Both the position numbers and the translations under genes were made by a program. This document shows, in pieces, positions 36,199 to 40,579 of a stretch of 64,000 nt of DNA; within the stretch, counting starts at the first letter, position 1; each line of letters begins with the position of its first letter. Source of the DNA: Mucilaginibacter glaciei (GTDB lineage: Bacteria > Bacteroidota > Bacteroidia > Sphingobacteriales > Sphingobacteriaceae); the NCBI RefSeq assembly GCF_014773245.1, contig NZ_JACWMX010000001.1:496001-560000 (forward strand). The letters are read 5' to 3'. Under the pieces are notes generated by a model. The model made no database searches and was not told the DNA's origin. It was given only the letters and a program-made list of their open reading frames with translations.

Positions 36199-37455
36199 AT
36201 GGATGCAGAAAGAATAACGGAGAAGTTGAATATTTTGGCAGATGCCGCCAAATACGATGTGTCGTGTTCATCGAGCGGGAGTAAACGAAAGAACGAAAAT
36301 AAGGGCTTGGGCAATGCCAGTAATGGAATTTGCCACTCTTATACCGAGGACGGGCGTTGCGTATCGCTTTTAAAGATCCTGCTTACCAATCACTGCATTT
36401 TTGACTGTGCTTACTGCGTATCGCGCAAAAGCAACGATATTAAGCGGGCGGCATTTACCGTGCAGGAGGTGGTTGATCTAACGATCAATTTTTATCGCCG
36501 TAATTATATCGAAGGGTTATTCCTTAGTTCGGGTATTTTTAAAGATGCCGATTATACGATGGAAAGGCTGGTGCGCATCGCCAAAAAACTGCGTACCGAG
36601 CACAAATTTAACGGCTATATCCATCTCAAGTCGATCCCCGGTGCCAGCGACGAGCTGATGAATGAGGCAGGCCTGTATGCCGACCGCCTGAGTGTTAACC
36701 TCGAAATGCCTACCGAAGCCGGTTTAAAACTATTGGCCCCGGATAAGAACCAGGCAGATATGATCAAACCGATGGGTTATTTAAAAGATGCCATTATCCT
36801 GCATAAAGAAGAAAAGAAGCTTTTTAAAAAAGCGCCCATATTTGCACCGGCCGGGCAAAGTACGCAAGTGATCATTGGGGCCACGCCCGAGAATGATAGC
36901 GAAGTGTTGCAGTCGGCCAATTATTTTTACAAAAATTTTAATTTAAAGCGGGTTTATTATTCGGGCTATGTGCCGGTTTTAGCAGATAGCCGTTTGCCCA
37001 CCCTAAACACTGCCGTGCCCATGGTGCGCGAAAACCGCTTATACCAGGCCGACTGGCTAATGCGCTTTTACGGCTTTAAGGTAAACGAGATAGTGAATAC
37101 ACAGCAACCGCATCTCGATCTGGATATCGATCCTAAATTAGGTTGGGCCATCCGTAATATGCAGGCATTTCCCGTAGATGTGAACAAAGCTGATCTACAA
37201 ATGATCTTACGTGTGCCCGGCGTAGGTTTATTATCTGCCCAGAAAATAGTGAGTGCCCGCAAATTTGGTAAGCTGAACTGGGATCATTTAAAGAAGATAG
37301 GAGTGGCCATAAACCGCGCTAAATATTTTATTGTGTGCCAAAGCAATGAATTTGAACGCCGCGACCTTACCGGCAATAATATTAAGCAGTTTATACTGGC
37401 TACATCGCAAAGTAAATATATAAAGAGCACGCAAAGTCAGCTTAGCTTGTTTTAA
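36199..37455 (+). CDS. Putative DNA modification/repair radical SAM protein (TIGR03916 type)
   Basis: 418 residues. The radical SAM iron-sulfur site is C66-x3-C70-x2-C73 (NHCIFDCAYC). N-terminal DAAKYDVSCSSSGS and GICHSYTEDGRCVSLLK, with C23, C45 and C54, are specific to this family and might bind a second cluster. The C-terminus has a helix-hairpin-helix DNA-binding motif (LRVPGVGLLSAQKIVSARKFG, near 336-356, given in part). The family is annotated as linked to uracil-DNA glycosylase-like proteins; its reaction is unknown. It shares one base with the partner gene (TAATG). Confidence 0.9.
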   Translation: MDAERITEKLNILADAAKYDVSCSSSGSKRKNENKGLGNASNGICHSYTEDGRCVSLLKILLTNHCIFDCAYCVSRKSNDIKRAAFTVQEVVDLTINFYRRNYIEGLFLSSGIFKDADYTMERLVRIAKKLRTEHKFNGYIHLKSIPGASDELMNEAGLYADRLSVNLEMPTEAGLKLLAPDKNQADMIKPMGYLKDAIILHKEEKKLFKKAPIFAPAGQSTQVIIGATPENDSEVLQSANYFYKNFNLKRVYYSGYVPVLADSRLPTLNTAVPMVRENRLYQADWLMRFYGFKVNEIVNTQQPHLDLDIDPKLGWAIRNMQAFPVDVNKADLQMILRVPGVGLLSAQKIVSARKFGKLNWDHLKKIGVAINRAKYFIVCQSNEFERRDLTGNNIKQFILATSQSKYIKSTQSQLSLF

Positions 37456-38219
37456 TGATGATGACCACCTTGTTATATGACGGATCGTTTGAAGGCTTAC
37501 TTACGGCGGTGTTTGAAGTGTATGAGCATAAAATGGATGCCGTTAATCTGGTCAAAACAGGTAAATATACTACAGCCATGTTTGAGCAGGTAATAACTAT
37601 AGTGACGGACGAAGCGAGGGCAACAAGGGTATTAAAAGGGCTAAAAACAAAGCTATCTCCAATGGGGGTGCAGCGATTATACGCAGCCCACCTTGCCGAA
37701 ATGGATGACGAAGACAACAATTTAATAGGGTTTATTCGGTACGCATTCAATAGCGACAAAAACATTGAGGAAGATTATGGTAACCGCTTTGTAGTGCGGG
37801 TGTCTGAAATGGTGCGTATGGTAAGGCGTGAAAAGCACAGAATGGAGGCTTTCGTGCGGTTCCAAAAACTTAAGGATGAAACCTTTTATGCGTCGGTAGA
37901 GCCTGATTTTAATGTACTGCCGCTACTGATCCGTCATTTTAAAAGCCGTTATGCCGACCAGCGCTGGATAATTTACGACCTGAAACGAAATTATGGTTTG
38001 TACTACGATTTGCACGATACCCAATATATCACCCTTGATTTTGCAGAAAGTAATAAGCCAAGCGATTTAATGACTGCCTTTTCCGAGGAGGAAGGGATCT
38101 ACCAGCATCTATGGAAGAATTATTTCAACAGCGTAAACATCAAATCGCGCAAGAATACTAAGCTTCATATCCGCCATATTCCCAAAAGATATTGGAAGCA
38201 TTTAACCGAGAAAATTTAG
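37455..38219 (+). CDS. TIGR03915 family putative DNA repair/metabolism protein
   Basis: 254 residues; the ATG at 37455 overlaps the radical SAM stop, and two further ATG codons follow at once. TTLLYDGSFEGLLTAVFEVYE near the N-terminus and RHFKSRYADQRWIIYDLKRNYGLYYD in the middle are characteristic of the protein that always neighbours the radical SAM protein. The function is unknown; in other bacteria it is sometimes fused to a uracil-DNA glycosylase superfamily domain, which is absent here (the usual short form). A role in DNA repair is inferred from the family link and the shared operator with imuA. Confidence 0.87.
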   Translation: MMMTTLLYDGSFEGLLTAVFEVYEHKMDAVNLVKTGKYTTAMFEQVITIVTDEARATRVLKGLKTKLSPMGVQRLYAAHLAEMDDEDNNLIGFIRYAFNSDKNIEEDYGNRFVVRVSEMVRMVRREKHRMEAFVRFQKLKDETFYASVEPDFNVLPLLIRHFKSRYADQRWIIYDLKRNYGLYYDLHDTQYITLDFAESNKPSDLMTAFSEEEGIYQHLWKNYFNSVNIKSRKNTKLHIRHIPKRYWKHLTEKI

Positions 38220-38273
38220 CTGTTCCTGATTTTAAGCATTCTTAATCTGCGGTTGAGCAGGCAAAAACGCTTT

Positions 38274-38294
38274 AGCTTGTGGAGAAGCTTTTTG
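38274..38294 (+). terminator. Possible terminator after the repair pair
   Basis: AGCTT-GTGGAG-AAGCT followed by TTTTG, 54 bases beyond the stop. Only five base pairs, so uncertain. Confidence 0.4.
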
Positions 38295-38404
38295 TTTATA
38301 AAGCTGCAACCTGATTGTCTTTTCGCTTCAATCGTTCAAATATCGATGTGGATAACAGTTAAATAAATGTTAACAACGTGTTAAAAAGAAATGTAAAAAA
38401 GTGC

Positions 38405-38436
38405 TTGACAAATGTTGGTTTAAGTCCCTATATTGT
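38405..38436 (+). promoter_or_regulatory. Strong promoter of the candidate structured RNA
   Basis: TTGACA (38405-38410), 18-base spacer, TATATTGT (38429-38436). It is an almost perfect consensus of the kind seen at rRNA and other highly expressed genes, and no protein gene starts behind it. A single DnaA-box-like TGTGGATAA lies upstream at 38347-38355. Confidence 0.7.
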
Positions 38437-38442
38437 AATCAA

Positions 38443-39056
38443 CAAGAACGACGTACTTTGACAGCCTTTCAGGAATACAGAAACTTAATCGGGTGACCTT
38501 TCGGGCGAACTAAAGATAAGGGAAGTACCTGAACTACATAAACAGAAATAAAATACGAAAGTAATTTACGAAGATGTTGTAGTTAAAGAGGTATTATGAA
38601 TGCTGCAAGATTCTATGGAGGAAGGCAGATTTTTATAATGACCTTGAAGCAATCGGCGTTTGCAAACAATGAGCAATCAGCATTCAATTGAATACGATTC
38701 GGTCAGTGTTGCAAGGATAACGACAGTGTCGACTTCCCCTCGGGAGATGGACGATATCAGGTTCCGCAGATAACAATACTTAGTCAGCGTCCCGCAAGGG
38801 CACGGGTTAGGCAGCGTCGAACGGATTTGATGGAGTTACCTCCGCAAGGAGACAGACCAAGTCCGCATTTCATGCCAACATTTGGTCGTATCATTATTCT
38901 CATGAGTAAAGATCGATCAACGTTAGCAATTAACAAAGAGGAGATCAGGTCGGTTAATTTACACAAAACTTGTTAGTCAAATGAGTGACTATGGTCAGTC
39001 AGGCGGTCAGGAAACGGGAGTCAATTCGCAAGAGTAGGCTTCCGTTTTCCTATTTT
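38443..39056 (+). ncRNA. Candidate large structured non-coding RNA, about 600 nt
   Basis: No protein gene of normal size fits in 38220-39226, yet this part is GC-richer than typical spacers and folds by eye into many local helices. TTCAGG/CCTGAA (38468/38528) encloses CTTAATC/GATAAG. AACTACA/TGTAGTT (38532/38578) encloses a hairpin with TAAAATAC and GTAATTTA closed by GAAA. CCC-GCAA-GGG lies near 38790. CGGATTTG/CAAGTCCG (38822/38858) encloses CTCC-GCAA-GGAG. TAGTCA/TGACTA lies at 38974/38986. At the end AGGAAACGGGAG pairs with CTTCCGTTTTCCT (39008-39051), terminator-like but with a poor T-tract. It contains none of the conserved parts of RNase P RNA, tmRNA, SRP RNA or 6S that I know. A 31-codon frame (38596-38691) lies inside. 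Ends are estimates. Confidence 0.65.
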
Positions 39057-39226
39057 GGGGTAAGTTGTAAATTTTATCAAAGTTTAAAGGGTAGATAACG
39101 TTGAAAAAGTATTTACTTAAAAAGACAAATAGTATTCAATAGGACATTACCCTTACAACCTTTCCACACTTATCATTTTCCCAACATTTTTATTTGTTGC
39201 CAATCAAAAACCCTACTTTGTGATCC
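39057..39226 (+). other. AT-rich spacer before the PhoH-like gene
   Basis: Follows the structured RNA. It is AT-rich and without a convincing gene; it must hold the promoter of the PhoH-like gene, but I see no exact TAnnTTTG box (nearest is TACTTTG at 39214-39220, one base short). Confidence 0.4.
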
Positions 39227-40579
39227 ATGATAAAGGATGCAGATAAATTGGACAGGAAGAAAAAAATATTTGTGCTGGATACATCTGTTATCCTTTACGA
39301 TCATAACGCATTCGAGAATTTCCAGGAGCACGATGTGGCTATCCCCATCCAGGTGCTGGAAGAGCTGGACAATATGAAAAGCGGTAACGATACCCGCAAC
39401 TTTGAGGCCCGCAGCTTTATCCGGCTGATGGACGATATGGCTAAAAACCGGCTCGTCAACCAATGGATCCCGCTGAATGGTAAAAGCAAAGGCAATTTTA
39501 AAGTTATACTGGATGTAAAGAATAGCAGCGCCGATGCCGAGCTGGTTTTCGGGTCAGAAAAATTAGATCACCGTATCCTGAACGCTGCCCTGGGTGTACA
39601 GTTCGAAAACCCCGATAAAAAAGTGATCCTGGTATCGAAGGATATCTGCCTGCGCTTAAAAGCAAAAGCACTTAATCTGAATGCCGAAGATTACGAAACA
39701 GGTAAGGTTAAAAACCTTGACGAATTGTATAGCGGCAAAACAACGCTTAATAAGATCACCGAAAAGGTTTTGGGGAAACTGAACAAAAACGATACGTTAC
39801 CCGGTACCGAACTGGAGATAGAACCCAACGCCGGCAATCAATTCTATATACTGAACAGCAAAGGTGGTGCCGCTGCATCAGCTTTTTATAATTCGCAAAG
39901 CGGACAGGTGGAAAAGGTTACTGACCAGCCCGCGTTAAACATATACCCGCGCAACCCAGAGCAGGCCTTCGCTATACACGCTCTGCTGCACCCGGATATT
40001 AAGTTAGTGACTATACAAGGTAACGCCGGTACAGGTAAAACGCTGTTGGCATTGGCCAGCGCGCTGGAACAACGCAAGCATTACCGTCAAATCTTCGTAA
40101 CACGCCCTATTGTGCCGTTAAGTAATAAAGACATCGGCTTTTTGCCCGGTGATGTTAAATCAAAGATCGACCCCTATATGGCGCCAATATGGGATAACCT
40201 TAAATTTATTAAAGACCAGTTTGCCGAAGACGAGAAGATGCAGGCCAAAATAGACGAATTGGTCGCTAATGATAAGATCTCTATCACCCCGCTGGCGTTC
40301 ATCCGCGGGCGAACGCTGAGCAAGATCTTCTTTATTGTTGACGAAGCACAGAACCTGACTCCGCATGAGGTAAAAACCATCATATCCCGCGCGGGGGAGA
40401 ACAGCAAATTTGTTTTCACCGGTGATATTTACCAGATAGATACCCCTTATCTGGATGCAGAAAGTAACGGACTATCTTACCTTATCGACAAGGCAAAAGG
40501 CCACCCGCTTTATGCGCACATCACCCTGCAAAAAGGTGAACGAAGTGAGCTGGCTAATTTGGCGAACGATTTGTTATAG
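39227..40579 (+). CDS. PhoH family ATPase with N-terminal PIN domain
   Basis: 450 residues. PIN domain at about 12-150 with D18 (VLDTSVILYD), E45/E46 (VLEELDNMK) and further Asp residues forming a probable Mg-dependent ribonuclease site. PhoH ATPase at about 240-445 with Walker A GNAGTGKT (265-272) and Walker B FFIVDEAQN (368-376). PIN-PhoH (PhoH2-type) proteins are RNA helicase-nuclease enzymes, found as toxins in mycobacterial PhoAT and widely in Bacteroidota without the antitoxin. No antitoxin gene is adjacent here; the upstream neighbour is the structured RNA. Confidence 0.92.
   Translation: MIKDADKLDRKKKIFVLDTSVILYDHNAFENFQEHDVAIPIQVLEELDNMKSGNDTRNFEARSFIRLMDDMAKNRLVNQWIPLNGKSKGNFKVILDVKNSSADAELVFGSEKLDHRILNAALGVQFENPDKKVILVSKDICLRLKAKALNLNAEDYETGKVKNLDELYSGKTTLNKITEKVLGKLNKNDTLPGTELEIEPNAGNQFYILNSKGGAAASAFYNSQSGQVEKVTDQPALNIYPRNPEQAFAIHALLHPDIKLVTIQGNAGTGKTLLALASALEQRKHYRQIFVTRPIVPLSNKDIGFLPGDVKSKIDPYMAPIWDNLKFIKDQFAEDEKMQAKIDELVANDKISITPLAFIRGRTLSKIFFIVDEAQNLTPHEVKTIISRAGENSKFVFTGDIYQIDTPYLDAESNGLSYLIDKAKGHPLYAHITLQKGERSELANLANDLL

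Follow-up and report, generated by a model that had tools for sequence, protein, structure and literature searches.

What is encoded in the 1007-nt gap (38220-39226) between a DUF4130 gene that ends at 38219 and a phoH gene that starts at 39227? The window analysed here is a 64,000-nt stretch of Mucilaginibacter glaciei DNA, and the original prediction described this part of it as a 1-kb gene-free stretch carrying a candidate new large structured RNA. The gap is indeed free of plausible genes on both strands, and there is no plus-strand open reading frame of at least 50 aa between 38220 and 39226. The sequence comparisons given below support well the view that the locus is an independent structured non-coding RNA gene with its own predicted promoter and terminator. 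The features of the gene and of its neighbour are as follows.

38405 to 38436, plus strand: promoter, TTGACA (38405-38410), 18 nt and TATATTGT (38429-38436), of the Bacteroidota-type TTG/TAnnTTnG form; read directly and conserved ahead of homologues
38438 to 39049, plus strand: non-coding RNA gene, long form of about 610 nt; blastn and covariance-model homologues, no Rfam match, out-of-frame indels
38441 to 38446, plus strand: 5' strand (AACAAG) of P1, a long-range closing helix; pairs with 38969-38974, with compensatory changes
38447 to 38467, plus strand: near-invariant block AACGACGTACTTTGACAGCCT, apparently single-stranded and the most conserved segment; 5' alignment and motif pattern in family records
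38470 to 38531, plus strand: 5' domain, with helices 38470-38478/38525-38531, 38484-38487/38517-38520 and 38492-38494/38509-38511 and a UUCG hairpin (38498-38505); covariation
38532 to 38584, plus strand: stem 38532-38537/38577-38584, ending in a GAAA hairpin (38554-38563); long forms, z 6.8 and 3.6
38588 to 38645, plus strand: stem-loop with a UAUG/UACG loop, 38588-38597/38635-38645, 38603-38606/38625-38628 and 38611-38613/38618-38620; long forms, z 3.7, 6.2 and 6.6
38722 to 38863, plus strand: long-form domain, helix 38735-38746/38840-38852 around a GCAA hairpin (38791-38800); z 8.0 and 6.9
38950 to 38974, plus strand: conserved 3' block TCGGTTAATTTACACAAAACTTGTT, whose CTTGTT (38969-38974) is the 3' strand of P1; 3' alignment and P1 test
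38987 to 38996, plus strand: hairpin GAC(UAUG)GUC with a UNCG-like loop; covariation in 116 aligned 3' modules
39010 to 39049, plus strand: terminator hairpin with an internal loop and a UC-GCAA-GA cap, followed by a T-rich tract; covariation
39227 to 40579, plus strand: phoH2, a PIN_4 RNase domain (15-157) fused to a PhoH ATPase/helicase domain (239-437), the proposed partner; Pfam, and a phyletic pattern the same as that of the RNA in 251 genomes

We place the putative 5' end of the RNA just before the AACGACGTAC block, from the promoter spacing and the conserved 5' motif; the 3' end was taken from the terminator. The promoter and the terminator-like hairpin had both been named in the original prediction, and both were found again in relatives. 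A similar promoter form, TTG-N19-21-TAnnTT, precedes 75 of 111 homologues, as against 2.4% in shuffled upstream DNA, and the 11-bp stem of the terminator carries double changes in 9 of its 11 pairs across 116 3' modules. A protein-coding reading of 38438-39049 was rejected, as indels among the long forms do not keep the frame (13 of 420 are multiples of three). Upstream of the RNA, at 36199-38219, lie genes for a radical SAM (HHH) protein and DUF4130, which are kept beside it in most Mucilaginibacter in the order radical SAM, DUF4130, RNA, phoH2. This is probably a DNA modification or repair pair, and nothing seen here ties it to the RNA.

Homologues were sought by blastn among Sphingobacteriaceae, as had been proposed, and they exist. 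Of 60 relatives searched, 33 have related DNA, each of them in the same genus, and the 5' 137 nt alone gave matches in 79 of 301 family genomes, the weakest of them short. Homologues of 330 to 610 nt occur across Sphingobacteriaceae, in the soil bacteria Mucilaginibacter and Pedobacter and in Daejeonella and others, and keep the order 5' motif, P1 helix and 3' module with terminator. They fall into forms of about 600 nt (23 copies), of 330-350 nt (46) and of lengths between or beyond these (21). The 5' and 3' ends are common to both main size classes and the middle is variable; the region 38722-38863 is missing from the short forms. The pattern of the near-invariant 5' block was matched in Mucilaginibacter, Pedobacter and Daejeonella records, and was absent from a draw of 345 genomes of the class outside Sphingobacteriaceae. 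From the family alignments we built two models, R1 for the 5' part and R2 for the 3' part, whose E-values are rough. With R2 the RNA was detected in 124 of the 251 family genomes searched, which represent 11 of the 25 genera. Among the 123 genomes that also have PIN-PhoH (see below), 102 have one R2 copy, 19 have two and 2 have three; at five loci (L020, L063, L072, L075 and L077) tandem copies lie within a few kb and are often mutually diverged. The RNA is chromosomal and vertically inherited, and a mobile element, phage or plasmid origin was rejected, as phage, plasmid and viral collections gave no match to it.

The structure is conserved beyond the sequence itself. The single-sequence fold (-169.6 kcal/mol) is more stable than that of shuffled sequences (-147.9 +/- 5.5; z -3.9, from only 20 shuffles). 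In the 5' module, 57 aligned sequences keep 95.5% of the pairs of a 15-pair structure with 90 double changes, and the covariation score is 0.293 compared with 0.129 for shuffled alignments and at most 0.107 for slid controls; its three helices reach z values of 4.2, 7.7 and 3.9 in the long forms. Among 116 aligned 3' modules, 21 of 23 pairs change on both sides (score 0.463, 0.202 when shuffled, slid controls at most 0.128); fitting this alignment to the model biases it towards the structure, and its controls are nonetheless far off. In 107 copies, P1 pairing is kept up by compensatory changes of several kinds (0.171 compared with 0.104 +/- 0.008 shuffled), with its 3' strand located by a fuzzy motif blind to the 5' partner. 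Most copies have AUCAAG/CUUGAU, the window has AACAAG/CUUGUU, and others have AUUAAG/CUUAAU or AUCAAU/AUUGAU. Relatedness of the sequences can inflate such scores. Because the shuffled, slid and cross-genus evidence combine, chance is a very unlikely explanation, and the observation of a structured RNA is confirmed, far beyond chance. Covariation, which had been put forward as a check in the original prediction, is strong in the 5' module, the 3' module, P1 and the long-form helices.

The original prediction of three helices capped by GNRA loops stands in part. The loops are present (GAAA at 38557-38560, GCAA at 38794-38797 and at 38844-38847), and covariation in a long-form alignment of 21 sequences backs the hairpins 38554-38563 (z 3.6) and 38791-38800 (z 6.9). 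The third hairpin, 38840-38851, competes with helix 38735-38746/38840-38852, which is better supported (z 8.0). A fourth GNRA loop, GCAA at 39028-39031, lies within the terminator hairpin. Three things go beyond what had been described: the helix that closes the 5' end onto the 3' end, the occurrence of shorter forms among relatives, and the association with the phoH gene next door.

Does this RNA belong to a known class? A search of the window with Rfam 15, at the gathering cut-off and permissively, gave nothing above cut-off and noise at loose thresholds. Diverse homologues likewise gave nothing above cut-off with a set that included RNase P, tmRNA, SRP, 6S, OLE, ROOL and GOLLD, so that the lack of resemblance to RNase P RNA, tmRNA, SRP and 6S noted at the outset was borne out. 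Sub-threshold scores for BTnc231, c-di-AMP, Termite-leu, toga_FSE, CRISPR-DR27 and mir-1175 were judged to be chance. Pedo-repair (RF01715) and BTnc231 (RF04180) are, like this RNA, found in Bacteroidota. The Pedo-repair model found no match at E<=5 in 17 Pedobacter loci; BTnc231 reached 22.8 bits in one homologue (L002), far below its cut-off of 80.4 and with many broken pairs, and had no match above cut-off in 61 genomes of the phylum. The 6S-Flavo model (RF01685) gave no matches in the genome G000, but control genomes likewise gave none; the window scan had none at the locus. We found no paper on this RNA or on any RNA partner of PhoH2 among open-licence full texts. With no Rfam family, existing homologues and strong covariation, the candidacy as a new large structured RNA is upheld, and the predicted 330-610-nt RNA is well supported as a previously uncatalogued structured class. 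Few long structured RNA classes are known in the Bacteroidota phylum, to which this adds a new one. The comparison originally drawn with OLE, ROOL and GOLLD holds for size and ornateness: all are intergenic, conserved, several hundred nt long and rich in tetraloop-capped helices, and OLE also has protein partners. It does not extend to relationship, as neither the window nor the homologues match their models. Those RNAs come from different taxa, and the RNA described here is conserved at its ends, not in its middle, and spans a twofold range of lengths.

The gene downstream offers a clue to function. Its product has both PIN_4 (116 bits) and PhoH (170 bits) domains above the Pfam cut-offs, the architecture of PhoH2. 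Searching 251 family genomes for PIN-PhoH proteins at E<=1e-100 yielded 124 genomes, and comparison with the R2 matches gave 123 genomes with both, 126 with neither, one with the RNA only (G183) and one with the protein only (G252). In G183 the match comes without the 5' motif and looks like an ordinary terminator. In G252 the RNA is cut by a contig end (R1 match C84:252-355) and phoH2 begins near another contig end. In a separate check, 29 genomes scored as lacking the RNA had a canonical PhoH of about 325 aa alone, or none in two incomplete genomes, and nine RNA-bearing genomes also had PIN-PhoH. In G071 (C7:387355-388008), which has two RNA copies, PIN-PhoH was matched over the C-terminal PhoH half alone, in a 219-aa frame. 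Fisher's test gives p 1e-70 for the co-occurrence, a value that ignores ancestry. On a tree of 75 genomes made from one marker, Dxr, the RNA and PhoH2 are jointly gained or lost at least 9 times, and the supported independent pairs agree in 6 of 6 cases (p 0.031). These become at least 11 changes and 8 of 8 pairs (p 0.008) with G108 and G191, which are less securely scored as absent (no R1 match, and not among the R2 or PIN-PhoH matches). The association of the RNA with PhoH2 across Sphingobacteriaceae thus appears well supported, and the joint presence and absence suggests that the two work together.

Physical linkage complicates this reading. In 105 of the 123 genomes the RNA and phoH2 lie within 5.5 kb of each other, and some of the joint losses could therefore be single deletions of a linked block. 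The RNA might then work on its own in housekeeping or regulation, as a sponge or scaffold for example, and sit beside phoH2 with a distribution shared through linked inheritance and deletion rather than function. The shared gene order in most Mucilaginibacter is in keeping with this, as is the observation that outside Sphingobacteriaceae the RNA and PIN-PhoH are often unlinked or PIN-PhoH is seen alone. However, both are kept in the other 18 genomes, where over 5.5 kb separates them or they lie on different contigs, which argues against simple co-deletion, although the linked cases could still be co-deletion. Moreover, none of the 251 genomes securely keeps one without the other, and in two distant families (f24 and f13) phoH2 again has a match as its neighbour, oppositely oriented. 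We therefore regard a stand-alone RNA as doubtful, if a serious contender. Far less credible is a cis-regulatory leader or attenuator of phoH2, despite the usual position of the RNA upstream of and co-directional with that gene. The RNA has its own promoter and a strong terminator that separates it from phoH2, it occurs in tandem and remote copies, and in many genomes it is divergent or unlinked. Divergent orientation is found in L178 and g27 within Sphingobacteriaceae and in f24 and f13 outside, and such flips indicate that the RNA is not a phoH2 leader, a reading that we rejected as highly improbable.

PhoH proteins are near-universal and poorly understood, and a large conserved RNA that co-occurs with PhoH2 is a concrete, testable candidate partner that would turn an orphan RNA into part of an RNA-protein system. 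In type III toxin-antitoxin systems (toxIN), an RNA gene precedes that of the RNase and a terminator separates the two, a layout shared by the locus described here. The mycobacterial PhoH2 is reported to be a hexameric, ATP-dependent helicase and sequence-preferring RNase that acts from single-stranded regions, and is described as part of a toxin-antitoxin system whose other member, the small protein PhoAT, is encoded upstream of it (PMC7390352). Our system shares the PIN-PhoH fusion and, as proposed, a small dedicated partner encoded just upstream; PhoAT is a short co-transcribed protein, whereas here the partner would be an RNA whose gene has a promoter and a terminator of its own. We found no PhoAT-type short protein upstream of phoH2 among plus-strand frames of at least 50 aa in 38220-39226.

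We propose that the RNA is probably a dedicated partner of PIN-PhoH (PhoH2), which would bind its conserved ends and have its activity controlled by the RNA. The conserved single-stranded ends would be recognised by the PhoH2 hexamer, with the near-invariant block beside P1 (38447-38467), a candidate protein or RNA contact, as a natural docking site. Once bound, the RNA might control the unwinding and cutting of other RNAs by PhoH2, either holding the enzyme in check or positioning it, a role comparable to that proposed for PhoAT in mycobacteria. Binding and control of PhoH2 by the RNA, if real, would amount to a novel type of RNA-protein machine or an RNase under RNA control; failing that, there would still be a conserved RNA of up to 610 nt to explain.

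A narrower form of this partnership is an RNA antitoxin of type III style, in which the RNA sequesters PhoH2 and the free RNase is toxic. The toxIN-like layout, the toxin-antitoxin description of mycobacterial PhoH2 with PhoAT (PMC7390352) and the lack of any secure PIN-PhoH without the RNA in Sphingobacteriaceae are consistent with it. Against it, the RNA without the protein was not found either, although a lone antitoxin should be tolerated, and this favours mutual dependence over a pure antitoxin. PIN-PhoH is also not a ToxN-like endoribonuclease. The RNA is long, can lie elsewhere in the genome and in most genomes is non-repetitive, lacking the repeat-type organisation of such antitoxins. 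It is inherited vertically on the chromosome, with none seen in plasmids, phages or viral contigs. An antitoxin role thus seems unlikely. Alternatively, the RNA may act elsewhere in the cell and be one of the chief substrates of PhoH2, which would mature or degrade it. This would fit the unwinding and cutting of structured RNA from single-stranded regions (PMC7390352) and the near-invariant, apparently single-stranded 5' block (38447-38467), but would not by itself explain the loss of PhoH2 wherever the RNA is absent, and mycobacterial PhoH2 has other targets; we consider it rather improbable.

How far does the proposed PhoH2 partnership extend? R2 gives matches in other families of the class. 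In four of these (f10, f15, f24 and f65) the match comes with a P1 helix and a different conserved 5' motif, CAAGTGAGRGATAAAAGG; a 3' block, AATAACAGTAGCTTGGC, and the same terminator with a GNRA cap are shared as well. The P1 core varies compensatorily among them (UCAAG/CUUGA, CCAAG/CUUGG and ACAAG/CUUGU), and none of these matches has an Rfam match. Distant members of the RNA family are therefore likely in at least four other families, a placement that draws on short conserved parts. Weak R2 matches in G407, G439, G632 and G183 were set aside, as they resemble terminators alone. PIN-PhoH occurs with no detectable RNA nearby in most other families of the class; R2 and motif searches of 27 such loci found none beside it, and the upstream gaps are mostly short. 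The partnership may have arisen locally, or the RNA may have diverged beyond the R1 and R2 models. It is thus conceivable, and we suggest it tentatively as somewhat short of an even prospect, that a class-wide Bacteroidia ribonucleoprotein exists in which an obligate large RNA binds the PhoH2 hexamer and controls or guides the RNase-helicase, which would make it the first RNA-partnered PhoH2 system.

Several of the distant loci have features of their own. In one (L170, f13), a weak R2 match with neither of the known 5' motifs lies beside a divergent phoH2 and may be a further diverged member. In another (L160, f65), the RNA copy is directly downstream of a gene with a DnaK-like C-terminus, and phoH2 is on another contig. 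Two f15 loci (L162 and L172) contain, about 550 nt upstream of the 3' match, several internal tandem modules, roughly GTTTGAGACGGGTAACCGCAGAAGTGC, with UUCG-type hairpins; these long forms look as if they had grown by module duplication.
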